DNA of 42,641 bases from contig JAMPEU010000024.1 in NCBI GenBank assembly GCA_023664865.1, positions 1 through 42,641 on the forward strand. Reading direction: 5' to 3'. The notes beneath the pieces were generated by a model, which saw only the letters and a list, made by a program, of their open reading frames with translations, was not told the origin of the DNA and did not search any database. A program made the position numbers and the translations under genes. Position 1 is the stretch's first letter, and each line of letters begins with the position of its first letter. Positions 934-31,787 of this stretch are shown piece after piece. Origin of the DNA: Butyrivibrio sp. GTDB taxonomy: Bacteria > Bacillota > Clostridia > Lachnospirales > Lachnospiraceae.

Positions 934-1123
934 GCGTCAGCGGCACATAGGCTAACTGAAAAGGCACACTCTCGTTCCAGTGGATAAACAAACGAATGCC
1001 ACGCTACGCGGACATTCTTATTGTTACGCAGCGGTACTAAGTTCAAAAGCCGCTTTGCGCCTTTTTCACTAACTACCGGCGTTTTCCAAGGACCTTTTCA
1101 GTTAGCCTATGTGCCACTGACGC
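934..1123 (-). repeat. Family A palindromic element, copy A1 (with extra hairpin)
   Basis: Arms at 934-964 and 1093-1123 are inverted repeats that match at 30 of 31 positions; the one exception is a G-U type pair on the minus strand. On the minus strand the core reads GGTCCTTGGAAAACGCCGG ... GAACTTAGTACCGCTGCG ... GAACGAGAGTGTGCC, as in copies A2-A5. Unlike the others, about 45 bp replace the short strand that should pair with the GGAAAA segment. The insert carries its own hairpin (GAATG...CATTC around 993-1017). The arms share only a loose pattern with other copies. No open reading frame belongs to it. The rest of the gene-free stretch 747-933 holds only the Rpn promoter and leader; 1124-1230 is AT-rich with nothing recognisable. 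Confidence 0.8.
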
Positions 1124-19246: not shown

Positions 19247-20185
19247 ATGCTGACCAAAATATTCGATTCTTTCACACGAGCCATATTCACGCTGCTTGCA
19301 ATATATCTGACGTTTCTTCTTCTGCGCTATCCCGCCCAGTCGTTAAACTATGCCTCCACAGGCCTGCTTTTGTGGTTTCAGAAAATGATTCCTACCCTGC
19401 TTCCTTTTATGATAATATCAGGCGTAATGGTGCGCATGAATCTTACTGAGCGTTTTGCCAAGTTTTTTCATCCGTTGTTCCACCTAATCTGGGGTACTTC
19501 CTTAAACGGTTCATATGTTATCCTGATGGGTATGTTATGCGGATTCCCCATGGGCGCCCGCGTCATTGGCGAATTGTGCCGTTCAGGCAGATTATCCGAA
19601 GAAGAAGGGGCTTTTCTGCTGGCTTTCTGCAATAATATAGGTCCGATATATTTTATCAGTTTCGTAATGAGTACGCTTTCTTTATCCGGAAACTATATTC
19701 CGTTCCTTATAATGTACGGCGTCCCGCTATTCTACGGCTTTTTACTGCGTTTTTGTTTAAAACGGCGTGATAACCGCAATGCCGTCTGCGGCATAACTAA
19801 CCATATTCCAATCATAGCCGCCAATACGCCTTCCCTTCTTGCCGCCGTCGATGACTCCATAGTATCAGCCCTTATCGGCATCGGCAAACTCGGCGGATAT
19901 ATGGTTCTTTTCAATCTCCTCAATATTATGCTGATTCCCTTTTCTTCCCTGCCCGAAAAGTTCTCCTTAGTCTGCAACTGCCTCCTCGAAATCACAAGCG
20001 GCATAAGCCGCCTGGGAGTAAACGGAACTTACATAATCCTCATTCTGCTACCCTTCGGCGGTTTCTCCTGCATGGCACAGACTTACAGCATGATAAAAGA
20101 TACCAACCTTTCAGTTTCAGGCTATTTCGCACACAAATGTATTCAAACCATACTAACAGCCGTCATATATATCTGCATTTTATAG
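19247..20185 (+). CDS. YlbJ/SpoVV-like nucleoside-recognition (Gate) domain membrane protein
   Basis: 312 residues from ATG 19247, with AAAGGA about 11 nt upstream; the ATG at 19226 has no site. Six to eight hydrophobic helices are visible (for example AIFTLLAIYLTFLLLRYP, SYVILMGMLCGFPMGARV, YIPFLIMYGVPLFYGFLL). Family hallmarks: MIPTLLPFMIISG, CGFPMGARVIGELCRSG and FLLAFCNNIGPIYF, matching the Gate-domain proteins that include YlbJ. In B. subtilis this family member (SpoVV) helps move dipicolinic acid during sporulation, so a sporulation role is plausible but not shown. One of only two plus-strand genes; its stop codon overlaps the first base of palindrome A2. Confidence 0.75.
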   Translation: MLTKIFDSFTRAIFTLLAIYLTFLLLRYPAQSLNYASTGLLLWFQKMIPTLLPFMIISGVMVRMNLTERFAKFFHPLFHLIWGTSLNGSYVILMGMLCGFPMGARVIGELCRSGRLSEEEGAFLLAFCNNIGPIYFISFVMSTLSLSGNYIPFLIMYGVPLFYGFLLRFCLKRRDNRNAVCGITNHIPIIAANTPSLLAAVDDSIVSALIGIGKLGGYMVLFNLLNIMLIPFSSLPEKFSLVCNCLLEITSGISRLGVNGTYIILILLPFGGFSCMAQTYSMIKDTNLSVSGYFAHKCIQTILTAVIYICIL

Positions 20186-20365
20186 CAGTTCAGCCCTCAG
20201 GCGCATGGACGCATATGCTCCCGCGCAGAGGTCCTTAAAAAACGCCGGCACTTAGTGAAAAAGCTGCAAAGCGGCTTTTGAACTTAGTACCGCTGCGTTT
20301 TTTACGGAACGAGAGTGTGCCTCAAGCGGGAGCATATGCGTCCATGCGCCTGAGGGCTGAACTGC
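20185..20365 (+). repeat. Family A palindromic element, copy A2 (perfect 40-bp arms)
   Basis: Arms 20185-20224 and 20326-20365 are perfect 40-bp inverted repeats. The core between them follows the family pattern: GGTCCTTAAAAAACGCCGG, AAAAAGC-TGCAAA-GCGGCTTTT hairpin, ACTTAGTACCGCTGCG, TTTTTTACGGAACGAGAG, GTGCCTC. AAAAAA pairs with TTTTTT where A3 has GGAAAA with TTTTCC. It fills the gap between two convergent genes, touching the YlbJ-like stop codon and ending 3 bp from the amidase stop, so it may also act as a transcript end. Confidence 0.85.
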
Positions 20366-20368
20366 CTC

Positions 20369-21838
20369 TTACCTCCGTCTCCTTTTATACCCACTAAGGA
20401 TTAACACCATCGAAAACACCATCGCCACAATCAGGGCGACACACACTAAGGATACTTTGAGAAAATATGATATCGTAATCTCCTGTTCCTTATCTTCTAT
20501 TTCGTCAAGGTCATGTGCAATGTCTATGTACTCGGTTTTATTATCTGATAAAGCCGCAGAATTTTCGCCTATGCCGTCTAAGCCTGAACTTCCTGTCGTA
20601 CCCGACACTCCATTCGCGCTGCCCGGATTACCCGCACCGGCTTCGCTTTCCATACTGCCCAAATTATCCGCCCCGCCGTCATTTCCCACACCGTCAATAT
20701 TGTCCAAGCCGATTCCCGTATCTACATCATTATCCGTCTCAAACGTCTTAGTAGGCACGGGACTCAGCATCAATATATTGCTCGTGGTATAAAGGTCATA
20801 TCCGTTATAGGCATTGACCGCAACCTGCGGCGTTGTGCCGGGCGGCACGTTAAAAGTAAACTCAAAGGTATCCTTCGACTTATCCGGCCATCTTTGCAGT
20901 TCCGAAAACGTCTCTCCGCCGTCATAACTGTATGTATAATAAAGCATCCCGCTGTCATAATCCGCGGCGGATACCCTGATTGTCACATCGCCGCTCAGAG
21001 TATCCTGTTCTACCAGCTCAATTACGCTGATATCCGGCTCCGTATAATCCGGCTTCACCACCTGCGATGGTACATTTACCTGTATGTTCTGATAATTGCT
21101 GTAGTCTTTGCCCAGAATCGTGGAACGCAGCCCAAAATATCTTGCCACTGCCTCGGCATCCAGCCTGCCGAAAGCCTCCAACTTCTCCTTATGGTCGTAA
21201 AACGGCTGGTCGTTTATCTGGTCAAGATGGCAGTGTTCAATAATCACGCTTGGCATCCCATATTCCGTAGCATGCCGTATGATTCCGTAATAATCCACCC
21301 CATCTTCATTGAGCCTCGTCTTAATCCCCCTCGAATACAGCCCCATCTCCTGTAAGAGCCCGATTTCGATAGAGGCAAAAGCATATCCTTTGCTATATTG
21401 CTCCCCAAAGGCGGAAATCCATGTTTCCGCGCCAAACAGCGTATGGTACGCCGACATATTATAATGCAGGCAGAATAAAAAATCCGCATTAACACTTGCG
21501 GCAAAATCACACCGCTCCTGCAATGACATCTCTTTATCGCCCGTCCTCGTCATATACACGGTAATGCCTTCGTACTTTTCAAGTTCTTCCTTCATGGCGT
21601 TTGCCGTTATAAGCGTAATCTCTTTCTCCGTATAGTCCTCATACTCAGCTCCCAGATTGCCGCCGCCGTGTCCGGGATCGATTACTATGACGACATTTTC
21701 ATCCGCCCATACTTTCGACATGCCACTATCCGCCAGTCCGAATAATCCCGTGCATACAAATGTCATTATTATAAATGCCGTGAAAAATAATAAGCCGGCT
21801 TCCATGCGAAACCAGCTTATTATGAACTTTTTGTCCAT
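20369..21838 (-). CDS. N-acetylmuramoyl-L-alanine amidase (Amidase_3), membrane-anchored at both ends
   Basis: 489 residues; the ATG at 21838 (MDKKFIISWF) has GGGGAG 8 nt upstream and is preferred over the longer frame. An N-terminal hydrophobic helix (~13-35) is a signal peptide or anchor. The Amidase_3 domain follows: VIVIDPGHGGG (zinc His), EYEDYTEKE (zinc Glu), YMTRTGD, FLFCLHYN (zinc His) and PSVIIEHCHL (catalytic Glu). It cuts the bond between N-acetylmuramic acid and L-alanine in peptidoglycan. A beta-sandwich-like region (TIRVSAADYDSG) and a Gly/Asp/Ser-rich linker follow. A second hydrophobic helix (VSLVCVALIVAMVFSMVLIL) ends in KRRRR. Starts 2 bp before the end of the upstream coiled-coil gene. 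Confidence 0.92.
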   Translation of the reverse strand: MDKKFIISWFRMEAGLLFFTAFIIMTFVCTGLFGLADSGMSKVWADENVVIVIDPGHGGGNLGAEYEDYTEKEITLITANAMKEELEKYEGITVYMTRTGDKEMSLQERCDFAASVNADFLFCLHYNMSAYHTLFGAETWISAFGEQYSKGYAFASIEIGLLQEMGLYSRGIKTRLNEDGVDYYGIIRHATEYGMPSVIIEHCHLDQINDQPFYDHKEKLEAFGRLDAEAVARYFGLRSTILGKDYSNYQNIQVNVPSQVVKPDYTEPDISVIELVEQDTLSGDVTIRVSAADYDSGMLYYTYSYDGGETFSELQRWPDKSKDTFEFTFNVPPGTTPQVAVNAYNGYDLYTTSNILMLSPVPTKTFETDNDVDTGIGLDNIDGVGNDGGADNLGSMESEAGAGNPGSANGVSGTTGSSGLDGIGENSAALSDNKTEYIDIAHDLDEIEDKEQEITISYFLKVSLVCVALIVAMVFSMVLILSGYKRRRR

Positions 21839-21839
21839 A

Positions 21840-22463
21840 TTAATTGCTCCCCTGAACCAAATCCAGATTAACAGCTTCTTCAGGTTTAGCATCAGCCTCT
21901 TCCTGATTCATCATTTCTTCTACCTGCTGCGGTATCAGTTCCGCCCGATTCGCCTTTACAACTTCGTTATAGTCGTTAATCGTATTAAAAAAGCTGTCAT
22001 AATGCGCAGTCGTGGCATTCAAAGCGTTAGTCATCAAAGCCTCAAGATTGGCAAGCATCTCATCCAGATAATTTACCGCGGCAGCCCTCATGCCGTTGGC
22101 CTCCATAGTCGCATTATCCAGAATCTCCTGAGCCTGATGCGTAGCAAGCGTAACCACCTCATTCGCCTGCGCATATGCCTGCTGCATGATTTCATGCTCG
22201 CTGATAAGCTCGTTGGTATGTACGGTAGCCTCGTTAATCAACGCTTCCGCTTTAGCGCGGGCATCATTCAAAATCGCTTCCTTATTGGTAAGCATCTTCT
22301 GATAATACTTAATCTCTTCCGGAGTCTTCATCCGGAGTTCGCGCAGAAGTTCGTCGATTTCTTCCTTATTTACGATAATATTCGTCTTAGAAAGAGGCTG
22401 ATACCTGCATCCGTCAATATAGTCTTCAATCTCATCAATTAATTGTTCGATTTTGCTGCTCAT
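21840..22463 (-). CDS. Coiled-coil protein, V-ATPase subunit H / DivIVA-like, function unknown
   Basis: 207 residues from the ATG at 22463 (AGGAG 5 nt upstream). No hydrophobic segment. Almost the whole chain, about residues 30-180, is predicted helical with long Ala/Glu/Gln/Lys-rich heptads (NDARAKAEALINEA, AQEILDNATMEANGM). This resembles the stalk subunits of ATPases and DivIVA-like scaffold proteins often found beside coaD in Clostridia. The start is 8 bp after coaD, so it is in the rsmD-coaD-coiled coil-amidase transcript. Placement before a peptidoglycan amidase fits a division or cell-wall role, but this is inference. Confidence 0.75.
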   Translation of the reverse strand: MSSKIEQLIDEIEDYIDGCRYQPLSKTNIIVNKEEIDELLRELRMKTPEEIKYYQKMLTNKEAILNDARAKAEALINEATVHTNELISEHEIMQQAYAQANEVVTLATHQAQEILDNATMEANGMRAAAVNYLDEMLANLEALMTNALNATTAHYDSFFNTINDYNEVVKANRAELIPQQVEEMMNQEEADAKPEEAVNLDLVQGSN

Positions 22464-22471
22464 TGCTACTC

Positions 22472-22960
22472 CTATCTTGTGTGGCCGTATTTTTCGTAAA
22501 TCAATTTCCCTACAAAGTCGGGAACGCATTGCGATATGTCGCCGTTAAAACTTGCAATTTCTTTGACGCTTGATGAGCTTAAGTAGGCATATTCAAGACT
22601 GGTGGTTAAAAATATCGTATCCAGTCCGCCGCCCGAAAGCTTCCTGTTAGTCTGGGCAATCTGTAATTCATACTCAAAATCCGTGATTGCGCGCAGCCCC
22701 CTGATTGCTACATGCACTCCCTTTTGCTTTGCATAGTCAATCAAAAGCCCGCTGAAGGAGTCAATAGACACATTAGGAATATCTTTAGTCGCCTCTTCTA
22801 ACATTCTAACACGTTCTTCAACAGAAAACAATGGAGTCTTTACGTTATTATTCAACACACTCACTGTTAATTCATCAAAAATCTCGGCGGCACGTTTAAT
22901 TATATCCAAATGCCCGTATGTCACTGGATCAAAACTACCCGGATAAATTGCTGATTTCAT
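22472..22960 (-). CDS. coaD: Phosphopantetheine adenylyltransferase
   Basis: 162 residues, normal length. It has the nucleotidyltransferase signature [14 protein letters not shown] (TxGH), [24 protein letters not shown] and the [13 protein letters not shown] segment. It transfers AMP from ATP to 4'-phosphopantetheine to form dephospho-CoA, the fourth step of coenzyme A synthesis. ATG at 22960 follows AAGGGAGACGAGT. It lies 70 bp after rsmD, the usual rsmD-coaD order. Confidence 0.98.
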
Positions 22961-23030
22961 ACTCGTCTCCCTTTATATTATATCAATTTTCCAAAAAAGT
23001 CTTTACTAATTTTAAAAAAAGTCAAAAAAT

Positions 23031-23579
23031 TTATATTTTTTTGAAAAAAACATGCTTATTCGTCTTATACCGCTTATCTTTAACAATAGTATAACCCAGC
23101 TCTTCTGCATATGAAAAATCAGTTGAAAGCAGCGCCTCTACAACGATGAGCGTATTTTCCGTCACATATGGCATATGGATTAGCCGCTCTAAAATGCGCC
23201 TCTCATATTCCTGATTGTATGGCGGATCCATAAAAATAATATCGGCTTCTTTCTCATGGATACCTTCTATCGCCACCAGCGCATCCTGCTTTAATACAGT
23301 GGCTTTCTCTGTAAACCTTGTGAATTTGAGATTATCAAGTATACAGGAAAGCGCGTCTTTTTGTATTTCCACAAAATACGCATGTTCCGCGCCCCGGCTC
23401 AACGCCTCGATTCCTATCCCGCCGCTGCCGCTGAACAAGTCGATAAAAACCGCCCCCGGTACATACGGCTGCAGCATATTAAACAACGTCTCCTTAATCC
23501 TGTCCGTTGTTGGTCTTGTATCTAATCCTTCCGGAGTTTTCAACCTCAGGCTCCTCGCCCGTCCTGCTATCACCCTCAT
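23031..23579 (-). CDS. rsmD: 16S rRNA (guanine(966)-N(2))-methyltransferase
   Basis: 182 residues from the ATG at 23579 (MRVIAGRARSLRLKTPEG, the typical RsmD opening), with GGGGA 7 nt upstream. The longer open frame upstream runs into palindrome A3 and is not coding. Motifs: TRPTTDRIKETLFNML, FIDLFSGSGGIGIEALSRGA (S-adenosylmethionine binding) and IIFMDPPYN (DPPY catalytic motif of N2/N6 methylation). It modifies G966 of 16S rRNA in the small subunit. First gene of a four-gene group ending with the amidase. Confidence 0.96.
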   Translation of the reverse strand: MRVIAGRARSLRLKTPEGLDTRPTTDRIKETLFNMLQPYVPGAVFIDLFSGSGGIGIEALSRGAEHAYFVEIQKDALSCILDNLKFTRFTEKATVLKQDALVAIEGIHEKEADIIFMDPPYNQEYERRILERLIHMPYVTENTLIVVEALLSTDFSYAEELGYTIVKDKRYKTNKHVFFKKI

Positions 23580-23624
23580 ACTTTTATCCCCATATTCATT
23601 TACTATACTAATCACAACCGTGGG

Positions 23625-23775
23625 GCGACATGGACTCATATGTTTCTTATTGAGGTCCTTGGAAAACGCCGGTTCTTGGTGAAAAAGCTGTTTTTTAGCT
23701 TTTGAACCTAGCACCGCTGCGATTTTCCACGGAGCGAGAGCGTACCTCAATATGAAACATATGAGTTCATGTCGC
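23625..23775 (+). repeat. Family A palindromic element, copy A3
   Basis: Arms 23625-23656 and 23744-23775 match at 30 of 32 positions; one exception is a G-T wobble on the plus strand, one a T-T. The core carries GGTCCTTGGAAAACGCCGG, AAAAGCTGTTTTTTAGCTTTT, CCTAGCACCGCTGCG and TTTTCCACGGAGCGAGAGCG. The internal stem TTGGT / ACCTAG differs from TTAGT / ACTTAG of A2 and A4 by a compensated pair. Located between the rsmD start and the ParC-like stop (12 bp away). Confidence 0.85.
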
Positions 23776-23786
23776 ATCCAGCCATA

Positions 23787-26024
23787 TTAAACGCGTATTT
23801 TTGTTCCTTTACTGTCCCTGCTTCCTGATTTAAGCTTATTAAGCTCGACTGTCTTGCCGTGGTACTCGATAGCTGCATCATCCGTATTTCGTGTATAATA
23901 AACCTCTTCCAGCTTATCATTTGCGCCTAACTTCATGCCCCGCACGCCGATAGCGCCTTTCTTCTTCTCAGGAATCTCGGCAATCGGAAACCGTAAGAAG
24001 TATCCGTCTTTCGTCTGAAGAATAATATTGTACTGCTCCTTAAGCGCCGTAACGCTTACCACTTCGTCTCCGTCCATAAGCTTGGTCGCCGCCACAGTCC
24101 TTTTTGCCACGTCGAACTCACCGCCGTCTACGACTTTTAACATCGCGTATCTTGTTACAAAAATCATTCTGTAGAGATTTAAGTCCGTCTGGCTTGATAC
24201 ATAGACAATACTCTCTTTAGTTGAATCATAGTTGCTTATATTGTCAATCGGAATCCCCTTATCCCTGAATTTTCCAAAAGGAAGGTCGGATACTTTAATC
24301 GTATGGAGCTGCCCCATATTGGTAAACAGGCATACTTTTCCGGTATTCTTACACTGCAGCACATACTTATTCTCCGCAATGACGGTCTCCTTATTTCTTT
24401 CATATGTCTGTAAATCAACGGTTCTCGCATATCCGAAACGGTCCATCATAAATATGATATCCATTTCTTCCGCTTTTTTCTCAATATAAACCGCCTCTTC
24501 GGCATTGGTAATCTCCGTCCTGCGTTTTCTGCCGTATTCATCCTTAATGGCATCAAGCTCATTAATAATGACCTGCGCCATTGAATCGCGCCTTGCGAGA
24601 ATATCTTCATAGCGGTAAATATTTGCCATCGTATCTTCATGCTCGTTGATTAAAGCCTCAAGCTCAAGTCCAATCAGCTTATACAGACGCATATCCAGAA
24701 TGGCGTTTGCCTGTTTCTCCGTAAACATAAGCTGCGCCGCCATAATTTTGGATTCTTTGCTTTTGAACTTGATGCCGTCCGTCTTTCCTTCAACCAGACA
24801 GGCTTTCGCCATATTTCTATCTCTTGAACCGCGCAAAATCTCTATAATTAAGTCTATGACGTTACACGCCTTTATCAGACCTTCTTGAATTTCCTTCTTT
24901 TCCAGCTCCTTCTCTAAAAGGTTCTGATATTTTCTGGTAGTGACTTCAAACTGGAAATCCACGTTCGCTTTGATTACCTGCTTAAGCCCCATGGTTTCAG
25001 GCCTGCCGTTTGCTATCGCCAGCATATTTACGCCGAAAGTATCTTCCAGCCTCGTTTTTTTATAAAGAAGGTTCTTAAAGTTCTCTACGTCGGTATCCCT
25101 GCGCAGCTCGATAACGATGCGAATTCCTTCTTTTGAGGACTGGTTCGTGATGTCAACTATGTCCTGCGTCTTCTTCGTCTCGGCAAGAGCTGCTACGTCC
25201 ATTAAAAACTTTCCTATGTTGACGCCTATCATCGTATAGGGAATTTCCGTGATAACAAGATTTATGTGTCCGCCCTTCGCCTTCTCTATCTCCACTTTAC
25301 CGCGGATTTTGATTTTGCCTGTGCCGGTCTCGTATATCTCAAGTAAATCGTCCTTATTGACGACAATTCCGCCCGTGGGAAAATCCGGTCCCTTCACATA
25401 ACGCATTAACTCTTTAGTAGTGATATTTTCGTTCTGCATATAGGCTTTAGTTGCGTTGACTACTTCGGTCAAGTTGTGAGGCGGTATATTGGTCGCCATA
25501 CCTACCGCAATACCCTCTGAGCCGTTTATCAACAGATTCGGGATTTTTACAGGAAGTACGCTCGGCTCTTTTTCCGTCTCATCAAAGTTAGGCAGAAAGT
25601 CTACCACATCCTTATCCAAATCGGCAAGAAAAGCCTCCTGCGTTATTTTTTCAAGCCTTGCCTCCGTATAACGCATTGCCGCCGCGCCGTCGCCTTCTAT
25701 ATTGCCGAAGTTGCCGTGCCCGTCGATAAGCGGCAGCCCTTTCTTAAAATCCTGCGTCATAACCACAAGCGCGTCATATATGGAACTGTCGCCGTGCGGA
25801 TGATACTTACCCATCGTATCGCCGACTATACGCGCTGATTTACGATATGGTCTGTCATAACGTATGCCAAGCTCATACATATCATAGAGGGTTCTACGCT
25901 GTACGGGCTTAAGTCCGTCGCGTACATCGGGAAGCGCTCTGGCAATTATAACGCTCATTGCATAATCTATAAATGATTTCTGCATTACATCGGAATACTC
26001 GGTTTTTATGATTCTGTCGTCCAT
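23787..26024 (-). CDS. parC: Type IIA DNA topoisomerase subunit A, ParC-like (topoisomerase IV)
   Basis: 745 residues. Breakage-reunion domain with YAMSVIIARALPDVRDGLKPVQRR, the quinolone-region YHPHGDSSIYDAL and the catalytic Tyr in AAAMRYTEARL; tower and coiled-coil follow, then a beta-pinwheel C-terminal domain. It cuts and rejoins both DNA strands together with the B subunit. It is shorter than GyrA (about 820-870 aa). In blade 1, where GyrA has the QRRGGRG-type box needed for negative supercoiling, it reads RTVDLQTYERNKETVIAEN. That favours decatenating topoisomerase IV over gyrase. The gene lies next to rsmD and not next to dnaA/recF. It is 82 bp after its B subunit. Older annotations would say gyrA. 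Confidence 0.85.
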   Translation of the reverse strand: MDDRIIKTEYSDVMQKSFIDYAMSVIIARALPDVRDGLKPVQRRTLYDMYELGIRYDRPYRKSARIVGDTMGKYHPHGDSSIYDALVVMTQDFKKGLPLIDGHGNFGNIEGDGAAAMRYTEARLEKITQEAFLADLDKDVVDFLPNFDETEKEPSVLPVKIPNLLINGSEGIAVGMATNIPPHNLTEVVNATKAYMQNENITTKELMRYVKGPDFPTGGIVVNKDDLLEIYETGTGKIKIRGKVEIEKAKGGHINLVITEIPYTMIGVNIGKFLMDVAALAETKKTQDIVDITNQSSKEGIRIVIELRRDTDVENFKNLLYKKTRLEDTFGVNMLAIANGRPETMGLKQVIKANVDFQFEVTTRKYQNLLEKELEKKEIQEGLIKACNVIDLIIEILRGSRDRNMAKACLVEGKTDGIKFKSKESKIMAAQLMFTEKQANAILDMRLYKLIGLELEALINEHEDTMANIYRYEDILARRDSMAQVIINELDAIKDEYGRKRRTEITNAEEAVYIEKKAEEMDIIFMMDRFGYARTVDLQTYERNKETVIAENKYVLQCKNTGKVCLFTNMGQLHTIKVSDLPFGKFRDKGIPIDNISNYDSTKESIVYVSSQTDLNLYRMIFVTRYAMLKVVDGGEFDVAKRTVAATKLMDGDEVVSVTALKEQYNIILQTKDGYFLRFPIAEIPEKKKGAIGVRGMKLGANDKLEEVYYTRNTDDAAIEYHGKTVELNKLKSGSRDSKGTKIRV

Positions 26025-26106
26025 AAAAAATAATCATACCCTTTCTCAACCTGTAAATTTATATGCCACGCCATATATAATGTCTGCAAATATAAATCGT
26101 TTTACA

Positions 26107-28029
26107 CTATACGTCCAGCTCAGCCTCGTTTGCATGACGGTAAATAAACTCTTTACGCGGCGGAACTTCCGTACCCATCAATAATTCCGTCATTTCGGAA
26201 GCCATACGCGCATCTTCTATTTCTACCAGCTTAAGCAGCCTTGTCTCCGGATCCAGCGTCGTTTCCCATAGCTGCTGTGCGTCCATCTCGCCAAGTCCTT
26301 TGTACCGCTGCAAGGTAAACGGTCCTTTATGGCTCTTTCTGTATTTTTCCAATGCCTTATCATCATAAAGATACTCTTCTTTACCCTTTGAGGGCATTGC
26401 CTTATAGAGCGGCGGCATCGCTATATATACATGTCCTTCATAGATAAGCTCCGGCATGAAACGATAAAACAATGTAAGTAAAAGCGTGGAAATATGCGCG
26501 CCGTCCACATCGGCATCCGCCATAATTATAATCTTATCGTAACGCAGCTTGGAAATATCAAAGTCGTTGCCGTAGCCTTCCGAAAATCCGCAGCCAAACG
26601 CATAAATCATGGTTTTAATCTCGGCGTTGGCAAGAACTTTATCAATGCTTGCCTTCTCTACGTTAAGAATCTTACCGCGAATCGGCAGAATTGCCTGAAA
26701 CATACGGTTTCTTGCGGTTTTGGCGCTGCCGCCCGCCGAATCACCCTCGACTATAAAAATCTCGCACTTGGAAGGATCTTTAGACTCGCAGTTGGCAAGC
26801 TTTCCGTTAGAATCAAAGGAAAACTTCTGCTTTGTCAGCATATTGGTCTTCGCTTTTTCTTCCGCTTTTCTGATTTTAGCGGCTTTTTCGGCGCAGCCGA
26901 TAATACTCTTTAAGTCTTCCAGATTTCTGTCAAAATACCTGACTATTTCATCGCCCGAAACCTTGCTGACTACCTTAGCCGCGTCCTGATTATCCAGTTT
27001 CGTCTTAGTCTGTCCTTCAAATCTGGGATCCGGGTGCTTAATGGAGACTACCGCCGTCATACCGTTCCTGACGTCGGCTCCGGTGAAATTAATATCCTTA
27101 TCCTTAAGGATATTCAGCTCTCTCGCATAAGTATTAATTATGTTGGTAAACGCCGTCTTAAAACCCGTAAGATGGGTTCCGCCCTCGGCGTTATATATAT
27201 TATTGCAAAAACCTAACACGTTTTCATGAAATTCGTTTACATACTGGAAAGCGACTTCTACGCTGATGCCTTCCGATTCACCCTGAATATAAACCACTTC
27301 GTTAATGGTTTCCTTAGTCTTGTTCATGTCCTTGATAAATCCGACGATGCCTTCCGGTTCATGATATTCAATATGCTCCGGCTCTTCTTTTCTCTTATCT
27401 TCAAAAATTATCGTCAAATTGGGATTAAGATAAGCTGTCTCGTGCAGGCGGCTCTTAACGTCGTCTTCCTTAAACCTGGTCTTGTCAAAAATCGTGTCGT
27501 CGGGAAGAAAGGTTATCTTGGTCCCTGTTTCTTTCGTCTTGCCTATCACAGGAAGCAGTCCGTTTTTTAACTCCATTGCCGGAATGCCGCGCTCGTATTT
27601 ATCTTCATAGATGCAGCCGTCTGTCTTTACCTGAACATGCAGCCATTCAGACAGCGCATTGACGACTGAAGAGCCTACGCCGTGCAGACCGCCGCTTGTC
27701 TTATATGCCTCATTGTCAAATTTACCGCCTGCATGAAGCGTGGTAAATACCAGACGTTCGGCGCTTATGCCCTTTTCGTGCATCCCTACCGGAATACCGC
27801 GCCCGTTGTCTTCCACTGCGGCGGAGCCGTCAGCCTCCAAGGTAACGCGTATGGTATCGCAATATCCGGCAAGATGCTCGTCTACCGCATTATCAACTAT
27901 TTCATATATTAAATGATTCAGACCTTTGGTGGAAACGCTTCCGATATACATACCCGGTCTGACTCTGACCGCTTCAAGCCCCTCAAGGACTGTAATGCTG
28001 GAAGCGTCATACTTGACATCTTTCGCCAT
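26107..28029 (-). CDS. parE: Type IIA DNA topoisomerase subunit B, ParE/GyrB-like
   Basis: 640 residues from the ATG at 28029 (MAKDVKYDASS); the ATG at 28041 sits too close to AAAGGAG. GHKL ATPase domain: EIVDNAVDEH, EDNGRGIPVG and the loop GGLHGVGSSVVNALS. Toprim domain: IFIVEGDSAGGSA, ILPIRGKILNVEKA and IIIMADADVDGAHI. C-terminal TLQRYKGLGEMDAQQLWETT as in all GyrB/ParE. It binds and hydrolyses ATP and provides the Toprim metal site for strand cleavage. By sequence alone GyrB and ParE are hard to separate; the ParC-like partner downstream decides the call. Own promoter at 28068-28097. Confidence 0.85.
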   Translation of the reverse strand: MAKDVKYDASSITVLEGLEAVRVRPGMYIGSVSTKGLNHLIYEIVDNAVDEHLAGYCDTIRVTLEADGSAAVEDNGRGIPVGMHEKGISAERLVFTTLHAGGKFDNEAYKTSGGLHGVGSSVVNALSEWLHVQVKTDGCIYEDKYERGIPAMELKNGLLPVIGKTKETGTKITFLPDDTIFDKTRFKEDDVKSRLHETAYLNPNLTIIFEDKRKEEPEHIEYHEPEGIVGFIKDMNKTKETINEVVYIQGESEGISVEVAFQYVNEFHENVLGFCNNIYNAEGGTHLTGFKTAFTNIINTYARELNILKDKDINFTGADVRNGMTAVVSIKHPDPRFEGQTKTKLDNQDAAKVVSKVSGDEIVRYFDRNLEDLKSIIGCAEKAAKIRKAEEKAKTNMLTKQKFSFDSNGKLANCESKDPSKCEIFIVEGDSAGGSAKTARNRMFQAILPIRGKILNVEKASIDKVLANAEIKTMIYAFGCGFSEGYGNDFDISKLRYDKIIIMADADVDGAHISTLLLTLFYRFMPELIYEGHVYIAMPPLYKAMPSKGKEEYLYDDKALEKYRKSHKGPFTLQRYKGLGEMDAQQLWETTLDPETRLLKLVEIEDARMASEMTELLMGTEVPPRKEFIYRHANEAELDV

Positions 28030-28067
28030 TATAACAACCATACTCCTTTACATTAACATTCTTGAAC

Positions 28068-28097
28068 ATTTTATCATAGGAAACTAAAAATTGTAAA
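28068..28097 (-). promoter_or_regulatory. Candidate promoter of the topoisomerase pair
   Basis: On the minus strand, TTTACA (28097-28092), 18 bp, TAAAAT (28073-28068). It lies between palindrome A4 and the B subunit gene, with a leader of about 40 nt. Confidence 0.5.
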
Positions 28098-28111
28098 GGG
28101 TGAATATTAAG

Positions 28112-28298
28112 TAACAGTTCAGCCCACAGGCGGCAGGGACACATATACTTCTGTGCAGAGGTCCTTAAAAAACGCTGGTCCTTAGTGAAAAAGCTGTTTT
28201 TTAGCTTTTGAACTTAGTGCCACTGCGTTTTTTACGGAGCGAGAGCGTGCCTCAAACGGAAGTATATGTGTCCCTGCCGCCTGTGGGCTGAACTGTTA
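28112..28298 (+). repeat. Family A palindromic element, copy A4 (43-bp arms)
   Basis: Arms 28112-28154 and 28256-28298 match at 42 of 43 positions; the exception is a T-G wobble on the plus strand. Its outer 15 bp (CAGTTCAGCCC...) are shared with A2 and A6, while the middle (GGCGGCAGGGACAC) is its own. The core is like A2 with GGTCCTTAAAAAACGC, AAAAGCTGTTTTTTAGCTTTT and TTTTTTACGGAGCGAGAGCG. The last three bases supply the TAA stop codon of the downstream minus-strand gene. Confidence 0.85.
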
Positions 28299-29033
28299 CA
28301 GGATAACCTCGTACAAGTATTCCCGTCCTCGCTTGCCGTTTCGTTCTATAAGCCCCATATTATAGAGGATATGCAGGGTGACTTGTGCCAAATCGCCGTG
28401 TATATGCGCCGCTTTGGCAAATTCTTTGACTGTAAACGCCTCTTCAAGCTCTACGGGGATTATCTGGATAAAATCTTCCTTGCGCTCGAAACATATCTCG
28501 TCGTACAATTCTACCGGCATTCTGTCATAGCGCGTCCCACGTTTTCTCCATGCCTTGTCCTTGGCGTCGCGCACCCTGTATTCGTCCATATCAATCAGTG
28601 GAAAGGCAAAAGAAAGATTGGGATGGGTTAAATAGTCTTTTATTTTATATAGTTCCGGAAAGGCGCTGTAAATGCTGCCTGTCAGCGGAGATTTGCGCCT
28701 TTGCGAGAGTTCGCCGCTGTCTTTATCCATCCATATAAGCCATCTTGTATGCGGAATCGGCAAGACCACCATGACCTTATAAAGCGGCAGGAAAGCCTTA
28801 AGCTTGTCCCTTAACCTGTTAAAATTCCCATTCTGTATCTCGATAATGCGCTCCCCTGTATAAATATCCGCAATGTATCCCTCAATCGGCACTTCATGAT
28901 AGTCCTGATTAGGCTCATAGTACGATTTCATCACAGCATGCACGGTCTTTTCCTGTAATGTGCCGAAACCGTGCTGCTCATACCTCCCAAGCAGAACGCT
29001 GACCTTCGCCTGTTCAAACGCTTCCTTGTCCAT
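28296..29033 (-). CDS. Uncharacterised nuclease-like protein with C-terminal winged-helix-like domain
   Basis: 245 residues; ATG at 29033 behind GGAGA. I do not recognise a named family. The N-terminal half has EVPIEGYIADIYTGER followed by IIEIQNGNFNRLRDKL. A strand with Asp followed by E-x-Q is the pattern of PD-(D/E)XK nuclease folds (D-Xn-E-X-Q variant). The middle has LPIPHTRWLIWMD. The C-terminal ~70 residues (EAFTVKEFAKAAHIHG...LHILYNMGLIERNGKRGREYLYEV) look like a winged helix-turn-helix. A DNA-acting enzyme or regulator is a fair guess, not shown. Its stop codon lies in palindrome A4, and its promoter region has short direct repeats shared with the divergent diguanylate cyclase gene. 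Confidence 0.7.
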   Translation of the reverse strand: MDKEAFEQAKVSVLLGRYEQHGFGTLQEKTVHAVMKSYYEPNQDYHEVPIEGYIADIYTGERIIEIQNGNFNRLRDKLKAFLPLYKVMVVLPIPHTRWLIWMDKDSGELSQRRKSPLTGSIYSAFPELYKIKDYLTHPNLSFAFPLIDMDEYRVRDAKDKAWRKRGTRYDRMPVELYDEICFERKEDFIQIIPVELEEAFTVKEFAKAAHIHGDLAQVTLHILYNMGLIERNGKRGREYLYEVIL

Positions 29034-29061
29034 CTGTTATTTCTCCGCTGTTTTTCATATT

Positions 29062-29133
29062 TTATAACATATCTATGACAATCTATGACAATTATAACAC
29101 AATCTATGACGCGCTACGACAATTATAACATTT
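29062..29133. promoter_or_regulatory. Direct-repeat regulatory region with candidate minus-strand promoter
   Basis: Plus strand shows ATCTATGACA twice in a row (29071-29090), then ATTATAACACA, a third ATCTATGAC (29102-29110), CGCTACGACA and a second ATTATAACA. The repeats overlap a minus-strand promoter candidate, TTGTCA (29091-29086), 18 bp, TTATAA (29067-29062), for the nuclease-like gene. Clustered sites between divergent genes suggest regulator binding. Confidence 0.45.
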
Positions 29134-29138
29134 TTTAA

Positions 29139-29167
29139 TTTACTTTATGAGCGTTTTACTATATAAT
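29139..29167 (+). promoter_or_regulatory. Candidate promoter of the diguanylate cyclase gene
   Basis: TTTACT (29139-29144), 17 bp, TATAAT (29162-29167), about 40 nt before the start codon at 29209. Confidence 0.6.
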
Positions 29168-29208
29168 GTTTTTATATATGTATTTTATAAGGAAACCAAA
29201 AGACAACC

Positions 29209-30318
29209 ATGAAAAAAATCCAAGATGTACTTCAGTATATAAAAATTAACTTTTCAGACGACAGATTCAAATACCGCATTTTGTTGTATGCCATTACCTC
29301 CGTGCATACATTTCTTGTTGTGCTTTTTGCACTTCTGCATGTATTTCTGCTGGTATTCTTTAACATTGCCAGCGTGATTATATATTTATACTGCATAAAC
29401 ACTACCAAAATTGAAACCGAAGATAAACTTATCAGAGTCTTCTATATCACTTATGGCGAGATTATCCTACATTCACTTTTTGCAACATTCTGCATCGGCG
29501 GGCATTTCGGCTTTTCGCAGTATATTACCGGGCTTGTTCCGTTTGGATATTATATCTGCGTGAAAATGTTAAAGTTCCGCATAAATAAAAAATATATTAT
29601 TGCTACCTCGTTTGGAATATTTGCTTTAATTTCATATATATGCTGTAAATTAATGTCAGTCTATAGTGAGCCTATTTTTATAGTAGATGTGCCGGTTGGA
29701 GTAGAAATGCTGATTTATGCTTTTAACGCCATATGCAACTTTGTATTTCTGTTCCTTGTTACCCTAATCTTCCTTATGGACATGCAGATGTCGGCCAATA
29801 AACTCTCCGACCAGAACGCTATCTTAGATAAAATGGCAAGCGTTGATCCGCTGACTGGTCTGTACAACCGCCGCAGCATGAAAGCGTTTTTCGACCATAT
29901 AATAGAAGCCGAAGAACCTTTCTGTCTGGTTATGTGCGATATTGACGATTTCAAAAAGTGCAACGACAATTATGGGCATGACTTCGGAGACATAGTGTTA
30001 AAAGAGATTACCGGAATTATACACGAACTTGAAACAGACCACGGATATGTATGCCGCTGGGGCGGTGAAGAAATACTTATCTTAAGCAATGAAAATCTGG
30101 ACACTACCTGCATGATTGCCGAGAACATTCGTAAAGACGTAGAGGCGCATGATTTCATATATAATAATAAAATAATCCACTGCACCCTTACCCTTGGAGT
30201 CGCCTCCCATAAGATTGGCAACACCATAGAAGATACAATCATGCACGCCGACAGGCGGCTGTATCATGGTAAGAAGAACGGCAAGAACAGAGTCGTAACC
30301 CCATATGATGCGCCTTAA
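29209..30318 (+). CDS. Membrane-bound diguanylate cyclase (GGDEF domain)
   Basis: 369 residues. The N-terminal ~200 residues hold about six hydrophobic helices (for example AITSVHTFLVVLFALLHVFL, FNAICNFVFLFLVTLIFLM) that form an uncharacterised membrane sensor. A short linker (SDQNAILDKMASVDPLTGLYNRRS) leads to the GGDEF domain at ~210-365. The active-site motif is RWGGEEI, an active GGEEF variant; CDIDDFKKCNDNYGHDFGD holds the metal and GTP contacts. The RxxD inhibitory site expected five residues before GGEEI is not present, so product inhibition is probably weak. Predicted to make cyclic di-GMP from two GTP. The ribosome site AAGGA is 15 nt from the ATG, so the start is a little uncertain. 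No EAL or PilZ gene is near. Confidence 0.92.
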   Translation: MKKIQDVLQYIKINFSDDRFKYRILLYAITSVHTFLVVLFALLHVFLLVFFNIASVIIYLYCINTTKIETEDKLIRVFYITYGEIILHSLFATFCIGGHFGFSQYITGLVPFGYYICVKMLKFRINKKYIIATSFGIFALISYICCKLMSVYSEPIFIVDVPVGVEMLIYAFNAICNFVFLFLVTLIFLMDMQMSANKLSDQNAILDKMASVDPLTGLYNRRSMKAFFDHIIEAEEPFCLVMCDIDDFKKCNDNYGHDFGDIVLKEITGIIHELETDHGYVCRWGGEEILILSNENLDTTCMIAENIRKDVEAHDFIYNNKIIHCTLTLGVASHKIGNTIEDTIMHADRRLYHGKKNGKNRVVTPYDAP

Positions 30319-30356
30319 GCAAATACACTAAGCATCATCATATGGGGCTGTTTTTT
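30299..30356 (+). terminator. Intrinsic terminator of the diguanylate cyclase gene
   Basis: 12-bp stem CCCCATATGATG (30299-30310) with CATCATATGGGG (30336-30347), then CTGTTTTTTAT. The left arm overlaps the last codons of the gene. The T-tract runs into the 3' end of the convergent gene at 30355. Confidence 0.8.
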
Positions 30357-31101
30357 ATAATTTCTTCGTGTTCCTGTCTCCACGCAGAATCCGCTCTCTA
30401 TCGGAAGCATTGAGTTCAACCATTTTTCCATTCCTGTCATAATAGGTTAAAAGAGTCGAATTAATTGCTACCGTTTTCTTTCCGTTGTCGGTAAGAAGGC
30501 TTATGACCTGATTTAAGTCGCCCTTGCGCAGATAAGGCTGGATTTCGCGGTCAAGACGCGCTTCTTCGGATTTATGTGCGGCATATGACTCCGCCAAATC
30601 CTGCTTTTCGGATTCGGCTGTCATGCTATTGCTACTAACAGCAGCCAAGGTTTCCGCCTCTGTTTCCGTGCCTTCGCCGACAGTCAAGCTTTCTATCCCT
30701 GTTTCCGCGCCATTATCAGCAGCCGCTGCATCCGTCTTCGGTTCAGGATCATTCCATATCTTATAGAATATATCCTTAACCGCAGATACCATCGCAGACA
30801 CAAGTTCCCTTAACATTCCGAAAATTGACTGTTGGTTTTCTGTCGCTTGTGCTTTAGATTCTGCAGCCTTCGCCCTGTCTGCCGCCGCGTTTTTACCGCT
30901 GCTTGAGAGTTCCAGCTTGACGCCACTTTCGGCATCCCTGCCCTTTTCCGACTCACCCGCCTTGTCTTTTTTCTCACTGTCCTTAGCCTGAAGTTCTTCG
31001 TTATTATAATTCAGGTTGAACTTCTCGCCAGTATTTGAGATATTAATATTTCTTGTCTTTGAATACGTATAGTAGTTCTTGTCGTCGATTCTATTAACCA
31101 T
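30355..31101 (-). CDS. Unknown low-complexity protein with a conserved-looking C-terminal domain
   Basis: 248 residues, ATG at 31101. No signal peptide. Residues ~35-90 are rich in Lys, Glu, Ser and Ala (KDSEKKDKAGESEKGRDAES). A short amphipathic stretch at ~92-117 (SIFGMLRELVSAMVSAVKDI) is followed by an acidic Ala/Thr/Glu linker to ~175. The C-terminal ~60 residues (IQPYLRKGDLNQVISLLTDN and LLTYYDRNGKMVELNASDRE) look ordered. Convergent with the diguanylate cyclase gene, which may be coincidence. I do not recognise the family; the C-terminal region resembles a small domain seen in uncharacterised Lachnospiraceae proteins. Confidence 0.7.
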   Translation of the reverse strand: MVNRIDDKNYYTYSKTRNINISNTGEKFNLNYNNEELQAKDSEKKDKAGESEKGRDAESGVKLELSSSGKNAAADRAKAAESKAQATENQQSIFGMLRELVSAMVSAVKDIFYKIWNDPEPKTDAAAADNGAETGIESLTVGEGTETEAETLAAVSSNSMTAESEKQDLAESYAAHKSEEARLDREIQPYLRKGDLNQVISLLTDNGKKTVAINSTLLTYYDRNGKMVELNASDRERILRGDRNTKKL

Positions 31102-31127
31102 AAACTGACTTTCCTATACCTTTCTTG

Positions 31128-31287
31128 TGCGTCATGAACTCATATGATTCCTCTTGAGGTCCTTGTAAAACGCCGACCACTGCAAGTGGTCTTGTACTTC
31201 AGCGAGGTCTTTTCGAGCTTAGTACCGCTGCGATTTTACACGGAGCGAGAGCGTGCTTCAAGGGGAAGCATATGAGTTCATGACGCA
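31128..31287 (+). repeat. Family A palindromic element, copy A5 (most diverged core)
   Basis: Arms 31128-31159 and 31256-31287 pair over about 32 bp; four departures are visible, three of them G-U wobbles on the plus strand. The core keeps GGTCCTTGTAAAACGCCG and CCGCTGCGATTTTACACGGAGCGAGAGCG, with GTAAAA pairing with TTTTAC. The central hairpin is replaced by another self-complementary segment (GACCAC-TGCAA-GTGGTC) plus a diverged stem (TGTACTTCAGC with GAGCTTAGTACC). It ends 8 bp before the leuD stop codon. Confidence 0.85.
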
Positions 31288-31295
31288 TTCAACTA

Positions 31296-31787
31296 TTATG
31301 CCTTTTGGTTAATATAATTAACCAGCCCTTCCGCCGCGATAATCTTCTGCATAAATTCAGGGAACGCCTGCCCTTTATATGTGGTGTTCTTGGTAACGTC
31401 GGTAATAACGCCTGTATCGAAGTTTACCTCTACGCAGTCTCCTGCTTCAATATCCTTAGCCGCTTCCGGACATTCAATAATCGGAAGACCGATATTAATA
31501 GCGTTCCTGTAAAATATTCTTGCAAATGTTTCAGCGATAACGCAGCTTACCCCCGCCGCCTTGATTGCGATAGGCGCATGCTCCCTTGACGAGCCGCAGC
31601 CGAAATTCTTGGTTGCCACAATAATGTCGCCTTTTTGCACCTTATTTATAAAATCCTTATCAATATCTTCCATACAGTGTGTCGCCAGTTCCGCCGGCTC
31701 TGAAGAATTCAGATAGCGCGCCGGGATAATCACGTCTGTATCAACATTGTCGCCGTATTTAAAAACAGTTCCTTTTACCGCCTTCAT
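31296..31787 (-). CDS. leuD: 3-isopropylmalate dehydratase small subunit
   Basis: 163 residues from the ATG at 31787 (GAGGAG 8 nt upstream; the upstream in-frame starts overlap leuC). It has [16 protein letters not shown], the swivelling-domain substrate loop [23 protein letters not shown] and [19 protein letters not shown]. With LeuC it converts 2-isopropylmalate to 3-isopropylmalate in leucine synthesis. This is the short, homoaconitase-like form typical of archaea and Clostridia. It lies 23 bp after leuC. Confidence 0.96.

Follow-up and report, generated by a model that had tools for sequence, protein, structure and literature searches.

The described systems closest to the repeats reported here fall into three groups. 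Miniature inverted-repeat transposable elements (MITEs) are short, non-coding, bounded by terminal inverted repeats and present in many copies that are gained between relatives, with a duplication of the target. Repetitive extragenic palindromic sequences and their REPIN forms (REP/REPIN), together with CGTC-tagged repeats, are characterized in parts of PMC3733652 as palindromic, intergenic, 20-40 bp long and paired head-to-head, the CGTC repeats being there without a known transposase; the main text of that paper contains neither the word Firmicutes nor the word Clostridi. Finally, two terminal repeats of the IS66 family start with GTAA in the portion of PMC12888890 that treats them.

Contig JAMPEU010000024.1 of a Butyrivibrio sp. 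(the window, 42,641 nucleotides; contig C97 of draft genome G000, 3.82 Mb in 180 contigs, 96.6% complete) carries five nested palindromes, which we call family A. They share all of the above MITE properties, although the target duplication, of 8 bp, is found in the GTAACAG class only. In contrast to MITEs, they combine arms that vary widely from family to family with a core conserved across genera, matching arms can enclose different cores, and no partner transposon was found. At 150-190 bp, family A also differs from REP/REPIN and CGTC repeats in length, and from REP/REPIN in its conserved three-helix core and the 8-bp target duplication in one class. It shares the GTAA start with IS66 ends, but no IS66 transposase is linked to its own ends, no search for one having been made. 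We conclude that family A is apparently an undescribed kind of small mobile DNA. The explanation that we consider probable is that a structured, RNA-like core travels in a MITE-like, REPIN-like mobile element, for which a DDE-type transposase would be provided in trans.

Structure and covariation of the core

The family A features of the window are as follows (arm identities from an inverted-repeat search; ORF, open reading frame):
20185..20365, plus strand: A2, a complete long-arm copy with 40-nt arms at 20185-20224 and 20326-20365 (100% identity, 40/40 complementary), flanked by two convergent ORFs.
20229..20320, plus strand: A2 core of about 92 nt, supported by covariation and the family-wide model.
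20237..20303, plus strand: A2 core helix P2 (AAAAAACGC ... GCGTTTTTT) with an apical hairpin module, coordinates counted from the sequence.
20309..20316, plus strand: A2 core hairpin P3, AC-GAGA-GT with a GNRA-type loop, covarying to GC-GAGA-GC in other copies.
23625..23775, plus strand: A3, a short-arm copy (arms 23625-23656 and 23744-23775, 94% identity), also compared with relatives.
28111..28299, plus strand: A4, a long-arm copy (arms 28111-28154 and 28256-28299, 98% identity), also compared with relatives.
31128..31287, plus strand: A5, a copy with another apical hairpin (arms 31128-31157 and 31258-31287, 93% identity), also compared with relatives.
934..1123, minus strand: A1 (arms 934-964 and 1093-1123, 97% identity), its core interrupted by an insert of about 38 nt that resembles the insert of L003 and parts the GGAAAA half from its partner.

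All five palindromes of the original prediction were thus recovered at their positions, and its paired stem changes (GGAAAA/TTTTCC, AAAAAA/TTTTTT and GTAAAA/TTTTAC in one stem, TTAGT/ACTTAG to TTGGT/ACCTAG in a second) can be read directly in the sequence. Two further statements held in part. The five copies do share a core, but that of A1 lies on the minus strand with its insert and A5 has a different apical hairpin. The arms do follow a loose CATGGAC-CATATG pattern, but those of A2 and A4 have more in common, running outward to a shared end, CAGTTCAGCCC.

Covariation across copies indicates that pairing itself is kept, as had been predicted. For 52 pairs in 31 copies, paired cells made up 98.9% versus 90.8% after shuffling, and the covariation score was 0.289 versus 0.125, values that none of 500 shuffles reached. 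Changes on both sides affected 27 of the 52 pairs, with 148 double-changed cells versus 35.7 in shuffled data, and slid controls lowered pairing to 33-51%. In a second set, made up of 32 divergent cores, double changes occurred in 21 of 26 pairs and the score was 0.491 versus 0.202 shuffled; for one of five measures, further pair types, 11 of 500 shuffles attained the observed value. The P3 pair 110/117 is GC in 18 and AU in 13 of the 31 copies, with no mismatch. The small hairpin carries a GNRA loop in 113 of 117 G000 copies (GAGA 80, GAAA 17, GGGA 12, GGAA 3, GCGA 1; the others have ACAA, AAGA or, in two copies, long inserts) and in 31 of the 32 divergent ones.

Parsimony on a tree of the 117 copies counted 301 double Watson-Crick changes, and its single changes comprised 64 to G-U, 29 to A-C and 44 others. 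Strand-symmetric DNA processes predict G-U and A-C in equal numbers, so the excess of G-U on the core strand (64:29, p=0.0004) favours selection on that strand. Together, GNRA loops and G-U excess suggest selection on a fold, and these sequence patterns favour a core strand that is folded and RNA-like. From the same patterns we infer that the core strand may act as RNA. The predicted function as folded RNA or single-stranded DNA is hence supported as regards an RNA-like fold but was incomplete, as the unit is mobile DNA. Family A is a natural case in which to test whether selection can favour an RNA-like fold in mobile DNA.

Distribution of family A

A DNA search of G000 with A2 gave 61 matches, with some copies counted on both strands (40 scored of 176 candidates). 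A covariance model built from the 31 copies (R1) detected at least 150 copies in this genome: all 150 scored candidates, of 1676, matched, the lowest at 85.9 bits. R1 matched 22 of 25 same-genus genomes, G000 included, at a variable 0 to at least 77 copies per genome, and none of 16 genomes from other families. Scanning named genomes for an exact pattern returned at least 71 stretches; among the matches listed, all came from four metagenome assemblies. A core-only model from the 32 divergent copies (R2), run within Lachnospiraceae with scoring limited to 10 candidates per genome, matched 156 of 397 genomes of this bacterial family and 137 of 334 genera (E <= 1e-4), with a false-positive rate that rests on rough E-values. 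Because the fold persists in more than 100 genera, it is probably required, be it for mobility or for tolerance or use by the host. Arms self-aligned in 51 of 54 R2-found copies, over 22 to 91 columns. By eye they differ widely between genomes, and some ends recur (GTAACAG, GGTAATTGCG). A GTCC tag 3' of the right arm was seen in 6 of 51 distant copies, too few for a claim.

The expected further copies were therefore found with both models, and the absence of a known family was borne out. None of the scanned cores reached an Rfam cut-off, which only TwoAYGGAY (in other stretches) and one tRNA did, and at E up to 5 the region 20100-31400 gave a single chance-level match, over A5 (22 bits, cut-off 249). 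We found no description of the family A core in the open-access literature searched. Plasmids and phages searched with A2, plasmids searched with a family C element (see below) and viral contigs searched with one exact 23-base pattern of the G000 type gave no match, searches that would miss distant cores. More than a third of the genomes sampled from a major bacterial family of the gut thus contain a repeat core that has no match in Rfam or in the literature searched.

Mobility and target duplication

Family A units are mobile, and A4 was gained: it is missing from the matching site in the relatives G020 and G010. Two further G000 copies (L281 e9710 and e15381) are absent from G020, and A3 is not at the matching site in G010, G004 and G045. 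Other sites are occupied differently. At L281 e1119, G000 has a family A copy beside half a family B arm and G020 has a family B element; at L281 e3624, a small hairpin remains at the site; and the A5 site of G020 holds only a short CATATG-centred palindrome. Family B combines the same core type with AT-rich arms (GTTGTACAATATATACAAAACAT; L282:4020-4230, with copies in L057, L017, L054 and L143). A solitary CATATG-centred palindrome without core, like that at the A5 site of G020, also occurs in G000 (C103:217882-217897, L210).

Two origins of these arrangements were considered and not retained. For insertion of a core into a ready-made CATATG palindrome, the palindromes without core would fit either direction, and among ten relatives compared, the nine that reach the A5 site (L334 stops short) showed no such palindrome by eye. 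The B element L282:4047 and the G020 site facing L281 e1119 had suggested that arms form when target DNA is duplicated in inverted orientation, an origin that was rejected because the presumed target stretches are shared B-family arms.

The end motifs of these elements include GTAACAGTTCAG, GGTAATTGCGAAA and CACGGAAATCA. Elements with GTAACAG-type ends (n=12) are flanked by an 8-bp direct repeat, with an identity of 0.73 at width 8 versus 0.34 in shuffled data (maximum 0.53 in 200 shuffles), whereas widths 2-7 and 9-12 stayed in the shuffled range. Matches per 8-mer were 8, 8, 8, 7, 7, 7, 6, 6, 5, 4, 3 and 1, with the seven core-carrying elements scoring 8, 8, 7, 6, 5, 4 and 1 of 8. The other five belong to family C, which has the same ends and another interior. 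As individual cases, L069 and L080, with other arms, each have an exact flanking 8-mer. Family C elements are about 185 bp long, carry the GTAACAGTTCAGCC ends of long-arm family A and have 8-bp duplications in most cases (L314, L315, L317, L325 and L282:17370-17600).

An autonomous element with GTAACAGTTCAG ends was sought without success, as no pair 0.8-3 kb apart exists among 38 exact end motifs. One GTAACAGTTCAG end pair lies 6.4 kb apart and encloses genes that look ordinary in translation, no profile search having been made; four more end-motif regions were judged from the first residues of their ORFs. Solitary ACAGTTCAGCC motifs without partner (L368, L369, L370) occur near ordinary-looking ORFs and may be left over from former elements or constitute an independent motif.

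Proposed mechanism

In the element that we propose, the core of about 92 nt would form two hairpins, one long and imperfect with a tip that can be exchanged, the other small and GNRA-capped, and the long self-complementary arms would close it. Copies with GTAACAGTTCAG...CTGAACTGTTAC-type ends make an 8-bp target duplication, which makes a DDE-type transposase acting in trans the most likely mover. IS66 target duplications are 8 bp long, and the GTAA ends hint, more weakly, at an IS66-like enzyme. Arms and core would evolve as modules, and we infer that the fold may aid mobility or toleration by the host.

Several observations weigh against this account. Regarding the fold, pair positions ever showing G-U versus A-C number only 26 versus 23, the G-U excess was counted on one tree that is blurred by recombination between copies, and such recombination could mimic part of the covariation. 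Regarding mobility, the A2 and L017 sites of G020 are partly deleted copies and not pre-insertion sites. The 8-bp duplication is clear in only one arm class, within which 8-mer scores are low for A4 (4/8), L041 (1/8) and L325 (3/8), and the D-class insertion in L109 lacks a duplication. In an arm-independent test, flanking matches exceeded expectation at most widths and 8 did not stand out, because arms contain smaller palindromes. For one IS66-related MITE, a passage of PMC12888890 gives 4-bp, not 8-bp, repeats. Beside solitary ends no ORF was recognized as a transposase by eye, no profile search having been made, and the loci have no recurring neighbour gene, as none of the ORF families is shared by more than 4 of 58. 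Finally, JAMPFM and JAMPHJ, the latter apparently G016 by match position and score, have the same core at each of the four filled sites at which they were compared (L115/L144, L125/L164, L124/L165, L109/L155).

A bolder reading, which we put forward tentatively and regard as possible rather than expected, treats family A as a class of mobile RNA modules spread through the bacterial family: a conserved core at the palindrome apex, with arms changing between lineages and the core exchanged between sites. The RNA would take part in mobility, for example by recruiting or regulating the transposase, or act in trans for the host, and TwoAYGGAY would be a second core of this class.

Different cores inside matching arms

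Eleven filled sites were compared, seven between G000 and G020 and four between JAMPFM and JAMPHJ (further filled pairs were left out), and five of them hold different cores within matching arms. All five are among the G000/G020 sites: A3, L282 e5967, L283 e8369, L283 e4695 and L011/L127. At A3 and L283 e4695, the core is also in opposite orientation in G020; the difference at L011/L127 is an added A5-like stem; and L283 e8369 is a weaker pair, its arms being less alike. The same core was kept at L282 e14843 and L283 e10098. Although the DNA on its flanks differs between G000 and G020, the copy at L282:14843-14985 (L286) is identical in both, which points to a recent conversion or to strong constraint. 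To our knowledge, no element described so far combines matching arms with different cores. How palindromic arms get replaced while the centre is kept can be tested on this family.

Since cores differ between matching sites, part of the arm similarity may come from recombination and not from selection on each copy. Palindrome correction, i.e., template switching or gene conversion in the hairpin and between copies, could in this way create covariation without any selection on a fold. It would account for the differing and twice flipped cores, for the 177 double Watson-Crick versus 67 single changes of the arms on the tree, and for the inner hairpin of L030, which is fully palindromic, unlike the mismatched one of most copies. 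However, the ratio of double to single changes climbs from 1:4 (<=6 differences) to 38:45 (<=10) and 386:305 (<=15). A share of double changes that rises with divergence is what stepwise compensation predicts, even if the first bin is tiny, and on this basis instant correction as the sole cause was rejected. The covarying P3 stem of only two base pairs, the excess of G-U over A-C on one strand and the GNRA loops likewise speak against palindrome correction, which we consider unlikely.

Transposase type and genomic context

An element of REPIN type whose single-stranded DNA is moved by a Y1 transposase (RAYT, the REP-associated tyrosine transposase, or IS200/IS605) would also be intergenic, hairpin-rich and high in copy number. 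All 12 pairs of copies less than 700 bp apart are head-to-head (5/5 in G000, 7/7 at other loci; L116, one of the 12, has a weak partner match), as reported for REP dimers in a section of PMC3733652; more distant neighbours in G000 occur in all four orders. The Y1 profile PF01797 matched 10 of 26 genomes searched, G010 with its 32 copies among them, and 5 of 14 control genomes; G016, G020 and G022 were outside the search. Yet no PF01797 match was found in G000, a 96.6% complete draft with at least 150 copies, and Y1 insertion does not fit an 8-bp target duplication. Movement by a Y1 enzyme is thus quite improbable, and a DDE-type transposase remains our preferred mover.

Most copies are intergenic. 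Among 114 copies placed relative to simple ORF calls, 6 lie within ORFs, probably because the ORFs were called with over-long starts, another 9 sit at the edge of a locus and 99 are flanked by two neighbours. Gaps holding these 99 copies are codirectional in 62, divergent in 30 and convergent in 7 cases, versus 167, 21 and 20 of 208 other gaps in the same loci; divergent gaps are enriched (30/99 vs 21/208, p=2.6e-5) and convergent gaps are not (7/99 vs 20/208). A cis-acting RNA of neighbouring mRNAs, be it a terminator, attenuator or processing or stability hairpin, would suit the position close behind stop codons (median 33.5 bases, versus 120 to starts, from the model's bounds), but it is very improbable given this gap distribution, the lack of a significant orientation bias relative to codirectional genes (24 same, 38 opposite, p=0.1, 62 copies) and the absence of individual copies from relatives, a terminator role being rejected on orientation and gene context. 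In these genomes, family A may also be a source of repeats between genes and of fragmented assemblies.

A TwoAYGGAY RNA in the window

A sixth nested palindrome, at 1231-1461, does not belong to family A but holds TwoAYGGAY (RF01731, 107 bits, 1264-1429), the sole Rfam RNA at cut-off within the window, which Rfam classes as cis-regulatory. It has its own 31-bp arms and lies head-to-head with A1. Like family A, it places a structured core within long arms; its core is a different one and constitutes an Rfam family, whereas the family A core matched none. This palindrome may, in broad terms, be the same kind of mobile element as family A. In L079, the same minus/plus layout recurs, with TwoAYGGAY adjoining a family A core copy (1501-1646 minus, 1723-1890 plus).

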